Shown here one piece after another: positions 14,610-24,369 of a stretch of DNA of 64,000 nucleotides. Position 1 is the stretch's first letter. Every line of letters starts with the position of its first letter. The notes beneath the pieces were generated by a model. The model ran no database searches. It was not told the DNA's origin and was given only the letters and a program-made list of their open reading frames with translations. The stretch is from assembly GCA_030835135.1 (NCBI GenBank), contig JAUQWO010000075.1, positions 461,330 through 525,329 on the forward strand, given 5' to 3'. A program made the position numbers and the translations under genes. The DNA is from Bacteroidota bacterium (GTDB lineage: Bacteria; Bacteroidota; Ignavibacteria; UBA10030; UBA6906).

Positions 14610-16031
14610 GTGATAGACCAGAAAGAAATCAGTGCCATTGTTGAGACCGTCGTCGCACGGTTGAAGGCCGAAGGAAAGGTGGCAGGCGCCACGGCAGCTG
14701 CAGCTCCGGAGTCCGGCGTTTTCCAGCGCATCGAAGATGCTCTCGCTGCCGCCCGCGCCGCACAGCCGGTGTGGGCGGCAACGCCCCGCGCGGTCAAGAC
14801 GAAGGTGATCGATGCGTTGCGGGCGGTGATGCACGCGCATGCCGAAGACTTCGCGCGCCGCGAATGGGAAGAGACCAGCCTTGGTCGCGTGGCGGACAAG
14901 ATCGTGAAGATCCATAATGCCGCAAACGCCACACCGGGACTCGAGGATCTGGAACCGCGCACATGGACCGGCACCAAGGGTCTGGTGGTTGAAGACTACG
15001 CCCCCTATGGCGTCGTGGCTGCCGTGACACCATCCACCCATCCCGTGCCGGTGCTCTTCAACAGTCTGGCGATCATCATCGCTCCCGGCAACGCGGTCGT
15101 GTTCAATGTCCATCCGGCGGCCAAGAGAGTCTCCGCGTATGCCCTTGCGCTGTTCAACAAGGCCATCCGCGAGAATGGCGGGCCCGCGAACCTGGCCACG
15201 ATGGCCGCGGAACCGACGATCGAAAGCGCCAACACGCTGTTCCGCGACAAGTCCGTGCGGCTTATCGGAGCAACGGGTGGTCCCGGACTCGTGAAGGCGG
15301 CGTTTGCCGCAGGGAAGAAGGTGATCGCCGCCGGCCCGGGCAATCCGCCGGTGCTCGTAGATGCGACCGCCGACCTCGATCGCGCGGCACGGCATATCAT
15401 CGATGGCGCCTCCTTCGATAATAATATCCTCTGTATCGCGGAGAAAGAGGCATTCGTGGTGGACGCGGTGTACAACCGTTTCATGGACGCCATGGCGCGG
15501 GCCGGTGCTGTGCGCCTCACGCGCGACCAGGTGAAGGCCCTCGCTGCAAAGGCGTTCCCGAAGAATGACAGGGGCGAGGTGACGACCAGCCGCGACTACG
15601 TCGGCAAGAATGCGTCGGTCCTGGCTCGTGCAGCAGGGCTCGCGGTCGGCGACGATGTGCGTCTGCTCTTCGGGGAGGCGGATTTCGACTGCCTCTTCGT
15701 GCAGGAGGAGCAGATGATGCCCTATATGCCGGTCGTCCGGGTCAAGGACGTGAACGAGGGCATTGCCCTGGCGAAGAAAGCGGAACACCGGTACGGCCAC
15801 ACGGCGATGATCCACTCGAACGACCTCGACACCATCACCCGGTTCGGACAGATCATGAACACGTCCATCACCGTGGTGAATGGCTCGAGCCTTGTCGGGC
15901 TCGGAGGTATGGCGGGGGAAGGCACCTTCTCGCATACCGTCTCCAGTCCCACCGGCGAAGGGGTGTGCACACCGCGGCACTTCGCGCGGATCCGCCGGCT
16001 GGCATTCGGCGGTACACTCAATTTTGTGTAA
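14610..16031 (+). CDS. CoA-acylating aldehyde dehydrogenase of the microcompartment (PduP/EutE-like)
   Basis: It oxidises an aldehyde (probably L-lactaldehyde) with NAD+ and CoA to the acyl-CoA. The 473-residue protein has the ALDH fold with catalytic Cys275 in NNILCIAEKEAF, the NAD-binding region AAGPGNPPVLVDATADLDRA and the EutE/PduP-type ending SHTVSSPTGEGVCTPRHFAR. The N-terminal helix DQKEISAIVETVVARLKAEG followed by an Ala-rich linker is an encapsulation peptide. The start is GTG at 14610, with GGGAA about 8 bases upstream. A nearby ATG at 14591 is out of frame. Confidence 0.92.
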   Translation: MIDQKEISAIVETVVARLKAEGKVAGATAAAAPESGVFQRIEDALAAARAAQPVWAATPRAVKTKVIDALRAVMHAHAEDFARREWEETSLGRVADKIVKIHNAANATPGLEDLEPRTWTGTKGLVVEDYAPYGVVAAVTPSTHPVPVLFNSLAIIIAPGNAVVFNVHPAAKRVSAYALALFNKAIRENGGPANLATMAAEPTIESANTLFRDKSVRLIGATGGPGLVKAAFAAGKKVIAAGPGNPPVLVDATADLDRAARHIIDGASFDNNILCIAEKEAFVVDAVYNRFMDAMARAGAVRLTRDQVKALAAKAFPKNDRGEVTTSRDYVGKNASVLARAAGLAVGDDVRLLFGEADFDCLFVQEEQMMPYMPVVRVKDVNEGIALAKKAEHRYGHTAMIHSNDLDTITRFGQIMNTSITVVNGSSLVGLGGMAGEGTFSHTVSSPTGEGVCTPRHFARIRRLAFGGTLNFV

Positions 16032-16092
16032 GCAGAAACAACGATCAATCGTACTGAAACGATCACAACGCAACATCTAAAGGAGCAGGACA

Positions 16093-16377
16093 ATGGCAAT
16101 GGAAGCACTTGGTATGATCGAGACCCGCGGTATGGTCGGTGCCATCGAAGCAGCGGATGCGATGGTGAAGGCTGCACGGGTACAGATGGTGGGTAAGGTC
16201 CTCGTCGGCGGCGGTCTGGTCACGGTCTTCGTGCGCGGCGATGTGGCGGCGTGCAAGGCTGCCACGGATGCAGGCGCGGCGGCGGCCCAGCGCGTGGGCG
16301 AGCTCGTGAGCTCCCATGTGATCCCGCGTCCGCACGACGACATCGAATCCATTCTGCCCACGCGGTCTGACAAATAA
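16093..16377 (+). CDS. Microcompartment shell hexamer protein (BMC-H, PduA/EutM-like)
   Basis: A 94-residue canonical BMC domain: [39 protein letters not shown] and a short tail. It forms the hexagonal shell facets. The pore loop reads VGGGLV where PduA has a GSG pore. A strong AAAGGAG SD lies 6-12 bases before the ATG, fitting the high copy number needed for facets. It is the only BMC-H in the window and no tandem-domain BMC-T is present, so the shell may be built from one hexamer plus three pentamers. Confidence 0.95.
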
Positions 16378-16391
16378 GAAGGAACACCCGG

Positions 16392-17174
16392 GTGAATAAC
16401 CTGATCTCCATCAAACGGGACCTCGTGGAGGTGGGCCGGCGCGTCTACGCGCGCGGCTACGTGGCCTCGAACGACGGCAATATCAGCGCGCGGCTGGACG
16501 ACAAGCGCGTGGTGATCACGCCGACCGGCGTCAGCAAGGGGTTCATGAGTCCGGAAGATATGTGCGTGGTGGACCTGGACGGTAAGGTGCTGCAAGGCAC
16601 CAAGAAGCCGTCGTCCGAGGTCTTCATGCACCTTGCCGTGTACAAGAACCGTCCGGACGTGAACAGCGTGTGCCATGCGCATCCAGCGTACGCCACCGGC
16701 TTCGCGGTGGCCGGCATCCCGCTGGACAAGTGCATCCTGCCGGAAGTGATCATCGCCCTCGGCGGCATCCCGGTGGTCGAATATGGGACCCCGGGCACGG
16801 AGGAATTCTTCCGCCCCGTGCTCAAGGTCCTGGATAAGTACGATGCATTCCTGCTCGCGAATCATGGCGCGCTGACGATCGGAAAGGATATCTTCAACGC
16901 CTACCACAAGATGGAGACGTTGGAGCACTTCGCCCATATCGCGTTCGTGGCCCAGCAGCTCGGACACATGAACGTGCTGAACCGTGAACAGGTGCAGAAG
17001 TTGACGGACCTGCGGCCGAAGTTCGGCATCCGGACCACAGTCGGTTGCGCGACATGTGAACTCGATCCCACGACCTGCGCGGTGCCGTCACCGGAACCTG
17101 CCGCTGGTGACGTGGATACCGAGGCCCTGGTGCGCAGCATCACCGATGCGGTCATGAAGAAGCTTCAGCAGTAA
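16392..17174 (+). CDS. Class II aldolase (L-fuculose/L-rhamnulose-1-phosphate aldolase type) with C-terminal encapsulation peptide
   Basis: It splits a deoxy-ketose 1-phosphate to DHAP and lactaldehyde. The 260-residue protein has the family metal site: SNDGNISARL, TPTGVSKG, HLAVYKNRPDVNSVCHAHPA (His-x-His) and a distal His in ANHGALTIG. Glu in the SSEVFMH segment is the likely catalytic residue. The last 19 residues (DTEALVRSITDAVMKKLQQ) after an acidic/Pro linker form an amphipathic helix, so the aldolase is predicted to be packaged too. A Cys-rich stretch before it (CATCELDPTTC) is unusual. GTG start, with AGAAGGA upstream. It sits 1 base before the kinase gene. Confidence 0.9.
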   Translation: MNNLISIKRDLVEVGRRVYARGYVASNDGNISARLDDKRVVITPTGVSKGFMSPEDMCVVDLDGKVLQGTKKPSSEVFMHLAVYKNRPDVNSVCHAHPAYATGFAVAGIPLDKCILPEVIIALGGIPVVEYGTPGTEEFFRPVLKVLDKYDAFLLANHGALTIGKDIFNAYHKMETLEHFAHIAFVAQQLGHMNVLNREQVQKLTDLRPKFGIRTTVGCATCELDPTTCAVPSPEPAAGDVDTEALVRSITDAVMKKLQQ

Positions 17175-17175
17175 G

Positions 17176-18363
17176 ATGCAGATCATCGTCTGCAACATCG
17201 GGTCCAGCAGCTTCAAGTTCCAGCTGTTGGACATGCCCGGCGAGGTGCAGCGTGCCCGCGGCTACACGGAACGCGTCGGCACGGGCGATGCGATCATCAC
17301 GTATTGGGTCGGGGACCGGCAGGTCTTCCATGAGGTCATGCCGGTCCCGTCGCACCGTGAAGCTGTCCAACACGCCCTGGGCTTCCTGCAGGACCCTGCG
17401 CACGGTCTGCTTGCCTCCCTGGAGCAGATCGGCGGGGTTGGGTTCAAGGCGGTCCAGGCCGGCGAGAAGAACGGCTCGGTGCTGCTGGCAGACGATGTGC
17501 TCGATGCGATGGAAGCCTACCGCGACCTCGCACCGGCACACAACCCTCCGTACCTGACCGCGATCCGGATGTTCCGCGAGCTCCTGCCGCGCACGCCCCT
17601 CGTCGGGGTGTTCGAGCCGGGTTTCCACACGACCATCCCGGACCATGCACGGGTGTACGGGGCGCCATACGACTGGTATGCCGATCACGGCGTACGGAAG
17701 TACGGCTACCACGGGGCATCGCACAAGTTCATCGCCACCGAGACCGTGCGCCAGCTCTCGCTCGATCCGGCGAACCACCGGATCATCTCCTGCCATCTCG
17801 GCGGTTCATCCTCCCTCTGCGCCATCAGGAACGGGGCATCCCTCGACACTTCCATGGGCTTCACCCCGCAATCGGGGTTGCTGCAGGGGACCAGGGTCGG
17901 TGATATGGATCCGTTCGTGCTCCCCTATATCATGAAGAAGAAGGGGATCACGCTGGAGAAGGCTCTGGAAGAGTGCTCGAAGAAGGGCGGTCTTGCCGGT
18001 CTGTCGGGGATCTCGGCGGACATGCGCGAGATCAACGCGGCGATCGCCGGAGGGAACGCCCGCGCGCGTCTTGCCCGGGACCGGTTCATCTACGACATCA
18101 AGCGCTATGTAGGCGAGTTCCTGGTCCTGCTGGGCGGGCTGGATGCGCTCGTCTTCACGGGCGGCATCGGCCAGAAGGATGCCGCGCTCCGCGCCGAGGT
18201 CCTGGAGGCGCTGGCATTCATGGGGGTGGCCATCGATGCGGCAAAGAACACCGCGCATGCGACGGTCATCACCGTGCCCGGCTCGCGTGTGACCGGCCTG
18301 GTGCTGGTCACCGATGAGGAGATCGTGGTGGCGCGGGAGACGGTCCGCGTCATTGGCGCATGA
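17176..18363 (+). CDS. Divergent acetate/propionate kinase homologue of the microcompartment operon
   Basis: Acetate kinases convert acyl-phosphate + ADP to acid + ATP, which would end the pathway started by PduL. The 395-residue protein has the ASKHA fold motifs CNIGSSSFKFQLL, LAPAHNPPY, YGYHGASHKF (His179), DTSMGFTP and GTRVGDMDP. Positions that are catalytic in characterised AckA differ: HRVVHGGE reads FKAVQAGE (Lys91 for Arg), FDTAFH reads FEPGFH (Glu147 for Asp) and GIGEN reads GIGQK (Gln333 for Glu). The family assignment is sure; acetate kinase activity is not. No encapsulation peptide is apparent. It ends the operon before a hairpin. Confidence 0.85.
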   Translation: MQIIVCNIGSSSFKFQLLDMPGEVQRARGYTERVGTGDAIITYWVGDRQVFHEVMPVPSHREAVQHALGFLQDPAHGLLASLEQIGGVGFKAVQAGEKNGSVLLADDVLDAMEAYRDLAPAHNPPYLTAIRMFRELLPRTPLVGVFEPGFHTTIPDHARVYGAPYDWYADHGVRKYGYHGASHKFIATETVRQLSLDPANHRIISCHLGGSSSLCAIRNGASLDTSMGFTPQSGLLQGTRVGDMDPFVLPYIMKKKGITLEKALEECSKKGGLAGLSGISADMREINAAIAGGNARARLARDRFIYDIKRYVGEFLVLLGGLDALVFTGGIGQKDAALRAEVLEALAFMGVAIDAAKNTAHATVITVPGSRVTGLVLVTDEEIVVARETVRVIGA

Positions 18364-18390: not shown

Positions 18391-18420
18391 GAACAGCCCT
18401 CAGTTCGTCGAGGGCTGTTC
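18391..18420. terminator. Hairpin between convergent microcompartment and aromatic operons
   Basis: GAACAGCCCTC (18391-18401) pairs perfectly with GAGGGCTGTTC (18410-18420), 11 bp with an 8-base loop. On the + strand it follows the kinase stop by 27 bases and is trailed by TTCGTTC, a weak U-tract. On the - strand it overlaps the last codons of the DAHP synthase gene. It is probably a shared terminator of the two converging operons. Confidence 0.6.
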
Positions 18421-19506
18421 TTCGTTCATCACGTGCGACTGGTGTTCGATGGATTCCTGGTGGATGATCTCGAACAGCTTTTTCACGAAGTCGCCCGTGA
18501 GATGCTTCTCCTTCCCTTCCTCCATGCGCGTCCGCACGATCTCATCCCACCGGTTCGATTGCAGAATGGTGATGTTGTTCTGCTTCTTGTACTGACCGAT
18601 CTGTTCCGCGATGCTCATGCGTTCGGCCATGATGCTCAGCACCTCATGGTCGATCTTGTCGATCTGTTCGCGCAGTTCCTCCAGCTTCGTCCGGGTCAGC
18701 ACGTCGTCGATCTTCTCGTGACGGAAGACCAGGTGTGCGAGCAGCTCGCCCATCTGGGCGGGCGTGAGCTGCTGCTTCGCGTCGCTCAGGGCTTCCTTGG
18801 GGTTGATGTGCGACTCGACCATGAGGCCGTCGAAGTTCAGGTCCATTGCGGTCTGTGACACGGCGAGCAACGTCTCGGTCCGGCCGCAGATGTGGCTGGG
18901 ATCGCAGATGATCGGGAGCCCGGGGACGCGCCGCTTCAATTCGATCGGGATCTCCCAGTTCGGCTTGTTCCGGTAGTTTGTCCGTTCGAAGGTGGAGAAC
19001 CCGCGGTGGATCGCCCCCAGCTTCGTGATGCCGGCCTTGTTGATGCGTTCGAGCGCGCCGATCCAGAGTTCGATATCGGGATTGATCGGATTCTTGACAA
19101 GGATCGGCGTGTCGGTGCCACGGAGGGCATCGGCGATCTCCTGCACGGCGAACGGATTCGCACTGGAACGTGCCCCGATCCAGAGGATGTCGATGCCCGC
19201 CTTCAGGGCATCTTCGGTGTGCTTCGCGTTGGCGACCTCGACGGCTGTCGGGAGTCCGGTCTCCTTGCCCGCGGTCTTGATCCAGGCCAGTGCCACGCTG
19301 CCGATCCCTTCAAAGGCATTGGGGCGCGTGCGCGGCTTCCAGACCCCGGCCCGGAGTGCATGCACCGTGCCGAGCTTCTTCAGCTCCTTCGCGGTGGCCA
19401 TGACCTGCGTCTCGCTCTCCGCGCTGCAGGGCCCCGAGATGATGAGGGGGCGGGGGATATCCAATCCGATCACACGCTGCTTTTCGAACGATAACACTGT
19501 ATCCAT
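18400..19506 (-). CDS. Bifunctional DAHP synthase (type I-beta) / chorismate mutase
   Basis: It joins the first shikimate step (PEP + erythrose-4-P to DAHP) with chorismate mutase (chorismate to prephenate). The 368-residue protein begins with the DAHP synthase domain (PLIISGPCSAESETQVM, LRAGVWKPRTRPNAFEG, CDPSHICGR, about residues 15-265). It ends with an AroQ-type mutase helix bundle (LEELREQIDKIDHEVLSIMA, then ERMSIAEQIGQYKKQNNI). DAHP synthase with a C-terminal mutase in a pheA/tyrA cluster is typical of Bacteroidota and relatives; the mutase domain usually makes the synthase feedback-sensitive to prephenate. Last gene of the aromatic operon. Confidence 0.93.
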   Translation of the reverse strand: MDTVLSFEKQRVIGLDIPRPLIISGPCSAESETQVMATAKELKKLGTVHALRAGVWKPRTRPNAFEGIGSVALAWIKTAGKETGLPTAVEVANAKHTEDALKAGIDILWIGARSSANPFAVQEIADALRGTDTPILVKNPINPDIELWIGALERINKAGITKLGAIHRGFSTFERTNYRNKPNWEIPIELKRRVPGLPIICDPSHICGRTETLLAVSQTAMDLNFDGLMVESHINPKEALSDAKQQLTPAQMGELLAHLVFRHEKIDDVLTRTKLEELREQIDKIDHEVLSIMAERMSIAEQIGQYKKQNNITILQSNRWDEIVRTRMEEGKEKHLTGDFVKKLFEIIHQESIEHQSHVMNEEQPSTN

Positions 19507-19539: not shown

Positions 19540-20412
19540 TCACTGCGCCCGTTGTTGTTTGCCATTGATGCCCGCAAGGACGCGACGGATCTCGTTCGCG
19601 CCCTCCATGGTCTGTGTCAGGCTTTCGCGTTCGCCCGATGCCACCATATCACGGAATGCGGTGATGTTCTTGATGTACGCATCGAGTGCTTCGCACACGA
19701 AGCGCGAATTCTGAATGAAGATGGGCGTCCACATCGCCGGCGAGCTCTTCGCGAGGCGGACGGTGGATTCGAAGCCCGTGCTGGCAAGGTCGAAGATCGT
19801 GGCGGTGCTCTTTTCGATCTCCAGAACGGTCGTGGCCAGGACGAACGATGTGATGTGGGAGATGTGCGACACATAGGCCGCGTGGCGGTCGTGCTCGTCC
19901 GCCTCCATGAACAGCAGGCGCATCCCCAGCGCGGCGTACAGGGCCCGGATGCACTCCGTGGCATCCGGTGCACTCAATCCGAGTTCGCACAGGATCCCGA
20001 GCTTGTCCCGGAACAGACCGCGGAACGCTGCGGAGGGTCCGCTGTTCTCTGTACCGGCGAGCGGGTGGGACGCCACGAACCTGCTCCGCCGGGGATGCTG
20101 CCGGATGGCATCACAGATCATCGCCTTGGTGGAACCAACGTCGGTCACCGCGCATGCGTCCGGCACGATGTCCAGGATGTGCGGAAGCAGCCCGACCGCG
20201 GTGCCCACGGGCGTTGCCACGATCACCATGTCCGACTGTCGTACAGCCTCATCCAGCGGAAGGCATTCATCCACCAGTCCGAGTGCAACCGCCTGCGCTG
20301 CGTGGTCAGGGTTATTGTCGACCCCGATGATCCGGTCCGCACGATGCGCATGACGCACTTCGAGGGCCATGGATCCGCCGATGAGGCCGACGCCGATGAT
20401 GCTCGCCGTCAT
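19540..20412 (-). CDS. tyrA: Prephenate dehydrogenase
   Basis: It oxidatively decarboxylates prephenate to 4-hydroxyphenylpyruvate for tyrosine. The 290-residue protein has the Rossmann start SIIGVGLIGGSMALEVRHA, TDVGSTKAMI, the SHPLAGTENSG prephenate-binding loop and the helical region DEHDRHAAYVSHISHI carrying the family's His residues. No C-terminal ACT domain is present. It overlaps the aminotransferase gene upstream by 4 bases and lies 33 bases before the DAHP synthase/mutase gene. Confidence 0.93.
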   Translation of the reverse strand: MTASIIGVGLIGGSMALEVRHAHRADRIIGVDNNPDHAAQAVALGLVDECLPLDEAVRQSDMVIVATPVGTAVGLLPHILDIVPDACAVTDVGSTKAMICDAIRQHPRRSRFVASHPLAGTENSGPSAAFRGLFRDKLGILCELGLSAPDATECIRALYAALGMRLLFMEADEHDRHAAYVSHISHITSFVLATTVLEIEKSTATIFDLASTGFESTVRLAKSSPAMWTPIFIQNSRFVCEALDAYIKNITAFRDMVASGERESLTQTMEGANEIRRVLAGINGKQQRAQ

Positions 20413-21596
20413 GACGCCCTCCCGGTGGCCGGCATGGTGAAGGACCGGACCGCGTTCAGTGCATTCTGCAGGACGGGCGCCGGGCTGCAGAGCGACAGGC
20501 GGAGATAGCGTTCACCTGCCGTGCCAAAGATGCTGCCCGGGGCGATGAAGACGTGCACCGATCGCAGGATCGCGTCACTAAGGAGCTTGGCTTCCGGCGC
20601 CTGGTCGGGAGTGCGGGCCCAGACGAACATCCCCGCCTGGCCTTCCTCCACGGCGCATCCGATCTGCGAAAGGATCGCTGTGCCGAGTGCCCTGCGCTCC
20701 GCATACTCCTTCTGCAGGGCCTCATACCATGCGGGGGCGGCGTGCAGCGCTTCGATGGCCGCCTCCTGAGCCGGCAGGAACATGCCGGATTCCACGTTGC
20801 TGCCCACGCGCAAGATCGTGTCGATGTAGTCCTTCCGACCTGTGATCCATCCGATGCGCCAGCCCGCCATGTTATGCGACTTGCTCATCGATCCGAATTC
20901 GATCGCGACGTCCTTCGCACCCTCGCACGACAGGATGCTGAGCGGGTGCAGCGTGGTGCCCAGCATGGCGTACGGGTTGTCGTGCACGATCAGGATACGA
21001 CGCTCCCGTGCGAAGTCCACCAAGCGCTGGAGCGTGGCCCGGGAAGCTGTCGCCCCGGTCGGCATGTGCGGGTAGTTTGCCCAGAGCACCTTCACCCCGG
21101 CCGTGTCCATCTTTTCCAGCGCCGTCCACCGCGGCGCCCACTGGTTCTCTGCATCGAGCGGGTACACGGCGACGGTACCGCCCGCCAGACGTGATACGGA
21201 TGTGTACGTGGGGTAGGAGAGTTCACTCACCAATGCGCGGTCCCCGGGATTCACAAATGCGAGGGCGACGTAGATCATGCCCTGCTTCGAGCCGGGGAGC
21301 GGGAGGATCTCCGTGTCGGGATCGAGTGTGACGCCGGCAGAGGTGGCGATATATCCTGAGATCGCCTTCCGGAGGTCCGGCAGGCCCTTGTAGGGCTGGT
21401 ACCCGTGCTTCTTTGGTTCGCGCGCCGAGGCTGCCAGTCGCTCGATCGTTGCCGCCGACGGGGGGAGATCAGGGTCGCCGATCCCCAGATTGATGACCGG
21501 AGTTCCGCCTGCGATCATCTGACGGATCTGCTGGAGTTTTGACGAGAAGTAGTACTCCTCGACGGTGCTCAGCCTGTCTGCTGCCGGGACGATCAT
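20409..21596 (-). CDS. Class I/II PLP aminotransferase (aromatic operon)
   Basis: A 395-residue fold-type I aminotransferase. Substrate region VINLGIGDPDLPPS, PLPGSKQGMIYVALAFVNPG, PLP-binding Asp/Tyr in VHDNPYAM, and the PLP Lys in SMSKSHNMAGWRIGW. Its place between pheA and tyrA, with 4-base overlaps on both sides, argues that it makes Phe and Tyr from phenylpyruvate and 4-hydroxyphenylpyruvate. Family-wise it is close to LL-diaminopimelate/aspartate-type transferases, so other substrates remain possible. Confidence 0.88.
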   Translation of the reverse strand: MIVPAADRLSTVEEYYFSSKLQQIRQMIAGGTPVINLGIGDPDLPPSAATIERLAASAREPKKHGYQPYKGLPDLRKAISGYIATSAGVTLDPDTEILPLPGSKQGMIYVALAFVNPGDRALVSELSYPTYTSVSRLAGGTVAVYPLDAENQWAPRWTALEKMDTAGVKVLWANYPHMPTGATASRATLQRLVDFARERRILIVHDNPYAMLGTTLHPLSILSCEGAKDVAIEFGSMSKSHNMAGWRIGWITGRKDYIDTILRVGSNVESGMFLPAQEAAIEALHAAPAWYEALQKEYAERRALGTAILSQIGCAVEEGQAGMFVWARTPDQAPEAKLLSDAILRSVHVFIAPGSIFGTAGERYLRLSLCSPAPVLQNALNAVRSFTMPATGRAS

Positions 21597-22438
21597 ACGT
21601 TCTTCTTTCCCCGTGGATACATACCGAGCACATGCAGCTCGTGCACATGCGGTGTGATGGTGTCGAGGGCGTCATCGAGCTGACTCTGTTTCTCGAATTC
21701 CAGGTCGATGTGCATATAGTATTCCCATTCCTTCCCCAGCACGGGCAGCGATTGGATCTTGGTGAGGTTACATCCATGTCCGGCGAGGATCGTCAGGACG
21801 GTGGCAAGGCTTCCGCGCCGATGGGTGACGTGGAAAGCCACCGACGCCTTGTCCGGTGCCGCGGTGTGGTTGTTCAGATTGGAGCGGTCGGTGAGGACAA
21901 GGAAGCGGGTGAAATTCCGCTTGTCGGTTTCGATGCCGGGTGCCAGGATGTGAAGGCCATACATGGCGGCGGCACGTTTCGCCGCGATCGCTCCAAACCC
22001 CCTCTTCTTGTGTTCGGCGATCCAGGCGGCGCTTGCCGCGGTGTCCGATGTCTCAACGAGGCGGATGTCCGGATGCTTCTCGAAGTACGCGTGGCACTGC
22101 TGGATGGCCATCGGATGGGAATGTACCTCCCGGATGTCTTCCAGCTTCTGCCCCGGGACCGCCATCAGGTTCTGGCGGATCGCCAGGTAGGTCTCCCCGA
22201 TGATCGCCAGTGTGGAGGTCCGCATCATGGCGTAGTTCGGGAGGATGGTCCCGGCCACCGTGTTCTCGATCGCCATTACGGCGTAGCGGGCCCTCTTCTT
22301 TTTCATGACCTGGAAGAGATCACGAAATGTTTCACAGGGAATGGGCGTGACGGGGGCCTCGAAGTACTGTGCGGCGGCTTCGTCGTGGAACGATCCTGCT
22401 ACGCCCTGAATGGCGACGGTAAGTTGGTCTGTGTCCAT
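21593..22438 (-). CDS. pheA: Prephenate dehydratase with ACT domain
   Basis: It converts prephenate to phenylpyruvate. The 281-residue protein has the PDT domain (AIQGVAGSFHDEAAAQYF, MAIENTVAGTILPNYA, VHSHPMAIQQCHAYF, ETDKRNFTRFLVL) and a C-terminal ACT domain (VAFHVTHRRGSLATVLTIL, then GCNLTKIQSLPVLGKEWEYY), where the ESRP-like motif of Phe sensing reads KIQSLP. First structural gene of the aromatic operon. Its ATG is only 6 bases after the U-run of the attenuator terminator, so in the terminated or hairpin-folded form both transcription and ribosome access would be blocked. Confidence 0.93.
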   Translation of the reverse strand: MDTDQLTVAIQGVAGSFHDEAAAQYFEAPVTPIPCETFRDLFQVMKKKRARYAVMAIENTVAGTILPNYAMMRTSTLAIIGETYLAIRQNLMAVPGQKLEDIREVHSHPMAIQQCHAYFEKHPDIRLVETSDTAASAAWIAEHKKRGFGAIAAKRAAAMYGLHILAPGIETDKRNFTRFLVLTDRSNLNNHTAAPDKASVAFHVTHRRGSLATVLTILAGHGCNLTKIQSLPVLGKEWEYYMHIDLEFEKQSQLDDALDTITPHVHELHVLGMYPRGKKNV

Positions 22439-22444
22439 AGAATG

Positions 22445-22470
22445 AAAAATCCCGACTTTCGTGTCGGGAT
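22445..22470 (-). terminator. Attenuator terminator before pheA
   Basis: On the - strand ATCCCGAC (22470-22463) pairs with GTCGGGAT (22456-22449) around a 6-base loop and is followed directly by a run of five U (22449-22445). An alternative pairing exists. Leader segment 2 (TCGTGCCGGGA, 22515-22505) can pair with TCCCGACACGA (22469-22459) with a single mismatch, which destroys the terminator. Segment 1 (CACGAG, 22525-22520) can pair with segment 2 (CTCGTG, 22516-22511). Confidence 0.88.
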
Positions 22471-22500
22471 CGGCTGTTTGGCGTTGGCGTTATGAGCGCA

Positions 22501-22572
22501 TCAGTCCCGGCACGAGGGTCTCGTGAGATAAAAATAATAAAACCCGAAGCCGGTGTAGTAATTGTTCTTCAT
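22501..22572 (-). CDS. Phe/Tyr-rich attenuator leader peptide of the aromatic operon
   Basis: A 23-codon ORF, ATG at 22572 and TGA at 22503-22501. Its core (residues 5-16) reads YYTGFGFYYFYL: five Tyr and three Phe among the first 15 residues. This is the signature of a ribosome-mediated attenuator sensing charged tRNA-Tyr and tRNA-Phe. The codon block for FYYFY ends directly before pairing segment 1, so a ribosome stalled there would cover segment 1 and free segment 2 for the antiterminator. No SD is visible, and the predicted transcription start coincides with the A of the ATG. Confidence 0.88.
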   Translation of the reverse strand: MKNNYYTGFGFYYFYLTRPSCRD

Positions 22573-22578
22573 GTGTTC

Positions 22579-22607
22579 AATGAAAGGAGTTTGCTCACCA
22601 ATTGCAA
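22579..22607 (-). promoter_or_regulatory. Predicted promoter of the pheA operon leader
   Basis: On the - strand: TTGCAA (22607-22602) as -35, 17-base spacer, TTCATT (22584-22579) as a weak -10, then six bases and the leader ATG at 22572. The hexamers are poor matches (4/6 and 3/6). However, spacing and distance to the ATG are identical to the strong promoter of the thr leader at 29233-29261. Confidence 0.5.
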
Positions 22608-22621
22608 GGGGAAAGTGATGT

Positions 22622-23482
22622 TCAGGGGCCATAATTGGCGAGCGCGCCCCGGGCGAGGGCCACGACCTTGTCCTTCAGGGCCGGCGGCTCCAGCACGGTG
22701 ACGCCCGCTCCCCGGCTGACCACCCAGCTTGCCACTTCATCCAGGGAATTCACGGTCGTCTCGAGTACGACGGACCCATCCTTCTCTTCGGTGATGATCT
22801 GAGACTCCATCATCTGTTGCGGCTTGATCCGTTCAGCCCACGTGGCATTCAGCTTGAGACGGACCGTGTGATTCTCCGTGCCGATCCAGCTCCGGAAGGA
22901 GTGCTTGAACAGGGCGTCGATCTGTTCCTGGGTCGGCGGCTTGAACTTCTTCTCGGTGGCCACCACCTCCAGCATCTTGATGATGTGGAATTGCTTCGGC
23001 TTCCCCTCGTTCATGGCGAGCACCCGCCACGACCCATCACTGTTGAAGAGCAGGACCGGGCAGATCTCCCGGTTCCGCTCGATCTCGGTGGATTCCTTTT
23101 CGTAGGTGATCCGGGCAACGCACCTGGACTCGATGCACCGCTGGAGCGTGACGATCCGGCTGAGCGCCTTCTCCCTGTGCTTCTTCACGAGGAGCGAGGT
23201 GGCCTTATCCACCGCATGGGTCGATGCGCAGATGCCGAGGTATTGCAGGATCACTTCGGTGAGGAGCTTCGCGGGGATCGGCTGGTCGAGACAGATCCCC
23301 GCCGTACGCCGCGAATGGACGGCGATGCCGACCGCGCGCAGATCCTGCATGTCGCGCTTGATCGTGGGAATGTCCCGGTCAAAGATCGCCGCAAGATCGA
23401 CGTCACGCAGTTTCTTCTCATTGTCGACGGCCAGGCCGAGGATCTCGATCTGGCGCTTGATCTTATGTTGGAGCTCCAGCAT
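22622..23482 (-). CDS. WYL-domain transcriptional regulator
   Basis: A 286-residue regulator. An N-terminal HTH (HKIKRQIEILGLAVDNEKKL, DRDIPTIKRDMQDLRAVGIA) is followed by a WYL-like ligand domain (CIESRCVARITYEKES, VLLFNSDGSWRVLAMNEGKP) and a WCX-type C-terminus (VRLKLNATWAERI). WYL proteins bind small ligands or nucleic-acid signals and often act as repressors in defence or metabolic loci. The ATG at 23482 was chosen because the family N-terminus begins there. It stops 49 bases before the aromatic leader ATG on the same strand, but nothing proves that it regulates that operon. Confidence 0.82.
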   Translation of the reverse strand: MLELQHKIKRQIEILGLAVDNEKKLRDVDLAAIFDRDIPTIKRDMQDLRAVGIAVHSRRTAGICLDQPIPAKLLTEVILQYLGICASTHAVDKATSLLVKKHREKALSRIVTLQRCIESRCVARITYEKESTEIERNREICPVLLFNSDGSWRVLAMNEGKPKQFHIIKMLEVVATEKKFKPPTQEQIDALFKHSFRSWIGTENHTVRLKLNATWAERIKPQQMMESQIITEEKDGSVVLETTVNSLDEVASWVVSRGAGVTVLEPPALKDKVVALARGALANYGP

Positions 23483-23550
23483 GGCGTGTCGCACGTGTGT
23501 TCGATTTGCCGCTCTGTGTGCGGCCCGACCTGTCCCCGATCCCGGGTGCG

Positions 23551-24369
23551 CTACCGCTTCCTGGCGATCACGCCGAACTGGGTCTTCATGCCCAGGGCGG
23601 TCCCGATCGGCTGAAACAAGGAACTCTGCGTGCTGAAATAGGAGACGACCTCGCACTCGAAGTTCTGCTTCTCGAAGAGACTGCGGATGGCGTCCTGGTC
23701 GACACCATTCCGGGTGACATGGTACTCCGCATTGTCGTGCGGTGAGTCCGGGATATACACTCCGCGGGCCCGGCGCAGGCGGCGCCGCAACCCATCGATC
23801 ACATCGCCCTTGGTGATCCGCCAGGAGAAATAGGCGACCTTGCTGAACAGGGAGGTCATGGCGCCGAGCGAATCATACCGGAGAGGGTCGTGGAACGAAA
23901 AGAACTGTCCTCCCGGGTTCAGCAGCGGGAGCGCTTCGCTGATCATGGCACAATAGTCCGGCACATGATGCAGGAAGGAGTTCACCACGATGATGTCGAA
24001 CCGGCGGGTCTTGTCCTGCAGGAAGACGTTGATGTCCTCGCAACGGATCTCCAGGTTCGTGCCGTACTGCTTGCACTTGATCTGCAACGTGTCCAGCTGG
24101 CTGCGCGAGATGTCGACCGCCACGACCTGCGCCCCCAGTTGGAGGAACGGCAGCGTCACCGAACCCTCGCCCGCGCCCAGATCCAGTACCCGGGGAATTG
24201 GCACGTGCTCCCGCGCGCGATCGAACACCTTGACAACGAGCGAACCATAGAGCTCCCGGAGGCGGGCATGCTTGATGTGCGGTGCACCATCCAGGTAATC
24301 GGCGGTCGCCTCATCGGTGTACACGGACACATTCGCGAGTGCTGCTATCTCGCTGATACGCTTATCCAT
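23551..24369 (-). CDS. Class I SAM-dependent methyltransferase
   Basis: A 272-residue methyltransferase. SAM motif I is VLDLGAGEGSVTLPF, the acidic end of strand 2 is VVAVDISRSQ, and motif IV/post I is FDIIVVNSFLHHVPDY, as in UbiE/COQ5-like enzymes acting on small or lipid substrates. A C-terminal extension of about 90 residues (with SLFSKVAYFSWRITKGD) looks like a lid or membrane contact. The ATG at 24369 follows GGGAAG; an upstream in-frame ATG at 24402 is less likely. The substrate is unknown. Confidence 0.8.
   Translation of the reverse strand: MDKRISEIAALANVSVYTDEATADYLDGAPHIKHARLRELYGSLVVKVFDRAREHVPIPRVLDLGAGEGSVTLPFLQLGAQVVAVDISRSQLDTLQIKCKQYGTNLEIRCEDINVFLQDKTRRFDIIVVNSFLHHVPDYCAMISEALPLLNPGGQFFSFHDPLRYDSLGAMTSLFSKVAYFSWRITKGDVIDGLRRRLRRARGVYIPDSPHDNAEYHVTRNGVDQDAIRSLFEKQNFECEVVSYFSTQSSLFQPIGTALGMKTQFGVIARKR

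Follow-up and report, generated by a model that had tools for sequence, protein, structure and literature searches.

A putative Phe/Tyr-sensing transcription attenuator upstream of the pheA operon, with counterparts across Bacteroidota

The pheA operon and its leader region

The window analyzed here, a stretch of 64,000 nucleotides from a Bacteroidota bacterium, carries on its minus strand an operon with the gene order pheA–aminotransferase–tyrA–DAHP synthase/chorismate mutase. The first gene (21593..22438) encodes a prephenate dehydratase with PDT and ACT domains (PF00800, E=1e-58; PF01842, E=2e-6) and is followed by a class I/II aminotransferase (20409..21596; PF00155, E=3e-61), by tyrA, encoding prephenate dehydrogenase (19540..20412; NF006307 above cut-off, 338 vs 295 bits), and by a DAHP synthase–chorismate mutase fusion (18400..19506; PF00793, E=8e-39; PF01817, E=1e-23). 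Visual inspection of a plus-strand cluster at 14610-18363 suggests genes for aldehyde dehydrogenase, a microcompartment shell protein, a class II aldolase and acetate kinase, which likely make up a bacterial microcompartment locus.

Upstream of pheA lies a leader ORF of 23 codons, MKNNYYTGFGFYYFYLTRPSCRD followed by a stop codon, on the minus strand at 22572-22501 (ATG at 22572, end of the stop codon at 22501), separated from pheA by 62 bases and preceded on the same strand by a WYL-domain gene (22622-23656) that ends 49 bases before the leader ATG. Five of the 23 codons specify Tyr and three Phe, including the regulatory core F Y Y F Y (TTT TAT TAT TTT TAT, codons 11-15), in a leader that is conserved in four close relatives (L002-L005). 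Of the 2258 short ORFs counted as candidates in the 64-kb window (both strands, 8-45 aa), none at any other place reached seven Phe/Tyr within 10 residues, the next-best candidate having five. A longer in-frame reading of the leader (43 aa, ATG at 22632) was rejected, having no counterpart in relatives.

Four RNA segments can be recognized on the minus strand in and after this ORF. Segment 1 (CACGAG, 22525-22520) may pair with segment 2 (TCGTGCCGGGA, 22515-22505), the antiterminator strand, which lies within the 3' end of the leader ORF. Segment 3 (TCCCGACACGA, 22469-22459), comprising the 5' arm and loop of the terminator, is an alternative partner of segments 2 and 4, and segment 4 (GTCGGGAT, 22456-22449) runs into a U-run, with which it forms the 3' half of a predicted intrinsic terminator (22444..22456). 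The 1:2 hairpin (CACGAG/CTCGTG) is small and is placed between the aromatic codons and segment 2. The 2:3 pairing comprises 10 of 11 possible pairs, with one mismatch, at -16.5 kcal/mol (z = -4.9 against dinucleotide shuffles of this duplex), and the 3:4 pairing is a 9-bp stem of -14.0 kcal/mol followed by the U-run, which stops a few nt upstream of the pheA ATG (22438); the arrangement is the same in L002-L005. A preliminary description of this DNA had proposed a 23-codon aromatic leader ORF and the three pairings, and both are borne out in the window, where the bounds that it gave (22445-22607) enclose the feature.

A Bacteroidota-type promoter is predicted at 22573..22613 on the minus strand, consisting of a CTTGC block, a spacer of ~21 nt and a weak -7 box directly 5' of the leader ATG. 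When the close relatives were aligned, CTTGC at ~40 nt upstream of the ATG was the only invariant block 5' of the ORF, and -7-like boxes were found near leader ATGs in relatives too. The window's own clade has a weaker form of this box only, with no strict TAnnTTTG boxes, and the promoter is therefore to be regarded as putative. Its position suggests that transcription could begin at or within a few nt of the leader ATG, giving a nearly leaderless start in this clade.

Folding of the leader RNA and the proposed mechanism

We folded the window's RNA as left exposed by a ribosome at given positions. As long as segment 4 had not been transcribed, all aromatic stalls gave the 2:3 duplex, at -17.5 kcal/mol or lower with extra upstream pairs. 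Once segment 4 was present, the equilibrium favoured 2:3 for the codon 14 stall alone; at the other stall positions a more stable fold was available, either 1:2 together with 3:4 or 3:4 by itself. A ribosome placed at the stop codon let 3:4 form (-14.7 kcal/mol), and with no ribosome on the leader the fold was that of the terminator. Since 3:4 with 1:2 outcompetes 2:3 at most stall positions, antitermination would have to be kinetic, as in known attenuators, and the modeled folding is indeed the behaviour expected of a kinetic attenuator: antitermination is predicted at equilibrium for the codon 14 stall only, and kinetically, before segment 4, for all aromatic stalls.

The sequence combines an aromatic-rich leader ORF, a terminator before pheA, an antiterminator that excludes it and a geometry suited to stalling, and we assign a probability of about 0.9 to the reading that the element is a ribosome-mediated transcription attenuator jointly sensing Phe and Tyr supply. 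In the cell, transcription would start just upstream of the leader ATG and the leader would be translated. When charged tRNA-Phe and tRNA-Tyr are ample, the first ribosome would reach the stop codon and cover segment 2, so that segment 3 could pair with segment 4 as the terminator, and the RNA would end at ~125 nt. Should Phe or Tyr be short, the ribosome would stall in the FYYFY codons with segment 2 exposed just past its leading edge, whereupon segment 2 could capture segment 3 ahead of the synthesis of segment 4 and allow read-through into pheA, the aminotransferase, tyrA and DAHP synthase. Within the window's genus the small 1:2 hairpin may add a check on ribosome position.

Conservation in close relatives and across the phylum

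Among 21 genomes of the family, operon-type pheA was found in the window's own genome and in four others (two genera), with the pheA genes of these relatives being 75-79% identical. Their leaders, MNSSVLHGFAFYYFYRASGSCRD, MLTNIHHGFGFYYFYPTRESCRD, MNSMSFTGHFFYFYHPMRFSCRE and MQTKSFTGRYFYYFYPMKFSCRE, occupy the same place before pheA, and each is followed by TCCCGACA...TCGGGATTTTT. The aromatic ORF, segment 2 in its 3' end and the U-tailed terminator were present in all five members. The leader peptide ends with SCRD or SCRE throughout this clade (5/5; 22501-22515 in the window), and since the codons concerned, TCG TGY CGG GA, constitute segment 2, conservation of this end seems to reflect a constraint on the RNA and not on the peptide.

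These comparisons also bear on whether the hairpin could be a constitutive terminator of the WYL-domain gene, with an aromatic ORF next to it by chance, as the short distance and the shared strand would allow. In L002-L004 a different gene lies upstream, yet the leader unit remains with pheA and therefore belongs to it; moreover, conservation of the unit extends through the phylum and is accompanied by covariation, as detailed below. On this comparative evidence a chance ORF at the terminator of the upstream gene is excluded, and we give that explanation a next to vanishing probability.

Searching 296 Bacteroidota genomes, we found operon-type pheA genes at 39-51% identity, and 71 operon-type pheA loci were examined, the close relatives and L033 included. 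Of the 71, 66 have an aromatic leader ORF and, after it, an intrinsic terminator. In a strict ATG/350-nt leader test, which asked for six or more Phe/Tyr in 10 residues, 32 of 35 operon-type pheA loci passed as compared with 22 of 3500 shuffles, while none of 30 divergent pheA genes (33-40%; from relatives at order and family level), taken as negative controls, had such a leader. Every leader holds at least two Phe and at least two Tyr codons (averages 5.1 and 3.5), making joint sensing of the two amino acids, as had been proposed at the outset, a conserved property of these predicted leaders. Where the sequence extended far enough, pheA was mostly followed by the aminotransferase, tyrA and DAHP synthase, and in some genomes immediately by DAHP synthase.

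The preliminary description had expected relatives to share an aromatic ORF and stems that covary, which held at 66 of 71 loci and far beyond the distance that it had in mind. The case it had named as contrary, the same operon with no aromatic ORF, does occur, as a minority of five loci (L033, L092, L100, L103 and L104); the attenuator is thus lost or absent in places, these five having apparently lost it. L092, L100, L103 and L104 all belong to one family (f37).

The terminators reached -9.3 kcal/mol or better at all 66 loci, as against equally good ones in 4 of 330 shuffles, with a U-run immediately 3' of each stem; a T-run was required by the search. This pattern is relevant to translational attenuation, in which the 3:4 hairpin, ~10 nt 5' of the pheA start codon, would block ribosome loading and a leader stall would free the start region, instead of or besides termination. 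The stem indeed ends 9-18 nt upstream of the pheA ATG in the window and close relatives. However, besides the invariable U-run, the distance of the hairpin from the aligned start of pheA in L041, L048, L049, L055 and L059 (36 to >160 nt) and an intervening gene between hairpin and pheA in L045 fit a terminator and not start-site blocking. We hence regard translational attenuation as quite improbable, and blocking of the pheA start codon as unlikely to be the main route. In L045, at about 1000-1480, the insertion between attenuator and pheA is a small gene (MTQLLEQAVATLN...), which would hence come under Phe/Tyr control too.

Covariation of the antiterminator was assessed at the 66 loci by an arm-swap test, in which the stretch from the last aromatic codon to the terminator was paired either with the terminator arm of the same locus or with the arms of all the others. 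The mean 2:3 energy was -14.0 kcal/mol with the own arm and -9.1 kcal/mol with swapped arms (z = -15.9), and none of 5000 permutations was as good as the observed pairing, with 48 distinct arm sequences being represented. Arms common to related genomes work against this test, so that with respect to kinship the result is conservative. Some Flavobacteriaceae-like loci have a weak 2:3 duplex (-5.5 to -8.5 kcal/mol).

Also the position of the antiterminator relative to the codons is shared. Segment 2 starts a median of 7 nt (IQR 6-9) past the last Phe/Tyr codon at the 66 loci, and at 56 of these it ends within the ORF. The leading edge of a ribosome lies ~10 nt past its A-site codon. Segment 2 would thus be essentially free during a stall on or before the last aromatic codon and covered once the ribosome is at the stop codon; in most genomes, as judged from this geometry, the ribosome completing the leader ORF would itself cover segment 2. 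The 1:2 hairpin behaved differently. About 5 bp of it were retained in five of five close relatives, via one-sided G-U changes, whereas phylum-wide the pairing was no better than in shuffled sequence (mean z -0.55, SD 1.5). The hairpin of the preliminary description is hence local to the window and its close relatives, and was rejected as a phylum-wide element.

A structured 5' region before an amino-acid operon could also be a metabolite-binding riboswitch or a T-box. No Rfam family reached gathering score in the window or in the pheA leaders of 18 relatives, with chance-level matches only in the leader region, and what the 66 leaders have in common is codon content and geometry, not a conserved RNA fold. 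We therefore consider a riboswitch or T-box very improbable, even more so than translational attenuation, and retain the ribosome-mediated transcription attenuator as the reading of the element.

At three loci, L034 and L071 (same genus) and L049, pheA is preceded by two Phe/Tyr leader ORFs in tandem, both having a terminator of their own, exemplified by MLQTRFFFGYYYFYAAA and then MPICIMVPTQQVFFTYGYYFFYLKKPARCCQC in L071; the window itself has a single attenuator. For the second attenuator of L049 the 2:3 energy was -23.9 kcal/mol with the terminator arm extended by hand and -7.9 kcal/mol with the automatic arm.

Relation to known attenuators and significance

The window's own genome has, at L107 (G000:C39), a Trp leader MKSAHAYRTNLSSWWWRTMMIPRPAGG (...SSWWWRT...) before trpE, followed by AACCCTTCCTGACAGCCAGGAAGGGTTTTTT with a terminator, which by its sequence appears to be an analogous, Trp attenuator-like leader. 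No comparable leader was found before hisG or before two acetolactate-synthase-like genes of that genome (his and ilv genes).

Ribosome-mediated attenuation belongs to textbook knowledge, and most work on it has been done in Proteobacteria. The pheL leader of E. coli and Salmonella resembles the element described here in having an aromatic-codon leader, an exclusive antiterminator and terminator, and pheA downstream; pheL, however, has Phe codons only and controls pheA alone, whereas Phe and Tyr codons are mixed here and the operon makes both amino acids. The enterobacterial ilvGMEDA (Ile/Val/Leu) and thr (Thr/Ile) attenuators are similar in that one leader reports several amino acids of the same operon, and differ in amino acids, sequences and phylum. 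The pheA attenuator of E. coli and Salmonella is listed among known attenuators (PMC1183508), and a 2010 survey that presented a case from Firmicutes knew of leader-peptide systems demonstrated until then in Proteobacteria and Actinobacteria only (PMC2965389). The Rfam Phe_leader family had no match in the window at gathering score, and none up to E=10, and the element is not a member of that enterobacterial family. The class of mechanism is itself known, being classical ribosome-mediated transcription attenuation, here with joint sensing of Phe and Tyr.

Vitreschak and colleagues, in work from 2004 on attenuator prediction, may mention attenuators of Bacteroidetes/Chlorobi. Recent main-text clues for Bacteroidota come from Flavobacterium psychrophilum, where the passages considered of one study describe a structured 5' element upstream of pheA, conserved in Flavobacteriaceae and without Rfam hit, together with strong clues for leader-peptide attenuation before amino-acid operons (PMC9723704). 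Judging from these passages that element is probably the same device; they contain no Phe/Tyr codon analysis, antiterminator covariation or range beyond the family. As compared with those passages, the present analysis adds Phe/Tyr codon content, covariation, ribosome geometry, a phylum-wide range that takes in the lineage of the window, as well as tandem copies. Apart from that study (PMC9723704), no described Bacteroidota Phe/Tyr attenuator was found in the literature covered.

For the tandem loci the nearest parallel is mgtCBR of Salmonella, with tandem attenuators responding to two different signals, ATP and proline (PMC3641672). It has two short-ORF attenuators in series, like L034, L049 and L071, but in these three loci both leaders carry Phe/Tyr codons and would thus report the same signal. 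The attenuator trpL of Sinorhizobium is leaderless, the 5' end of its transcript being at the leader ATG (PMC7298713), and so resembles the start that is only predicted here; it differs in using Trp codons and in belonging to Alphaproteobacteria. What appears new is the spread across the phylum, the lack of an Rfam entry, the tandem copies in three genomes and the predicted nearly leaderless start. That these loci together form a phylum-wide Bacteroidota family of Phe/Tyr co-sensing attenuators, not in Rfam and sometimes tandem, is a view towards which we lean, with the odds slightly in its favour.

Bacteroidota mRNAs are mostly without Shine-Dalgarno sequences, and transcription-translation coupling is poorly studied in the phylum. 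If true, the proposed attenuator family would imply tight coupling of transcription and translation in organisms having such mRNAs, as well as translation of the leader from a nearly leaderless start in the clade of the window. A Phe/Tyr attenuator at 66 of 71 pheA operons would give a testable readout of that coupling, would offer a natural set of single and tandem attenuator versions, and would provide regulatory annotation for most aromatic amino-acid operons of Bacteroidota.
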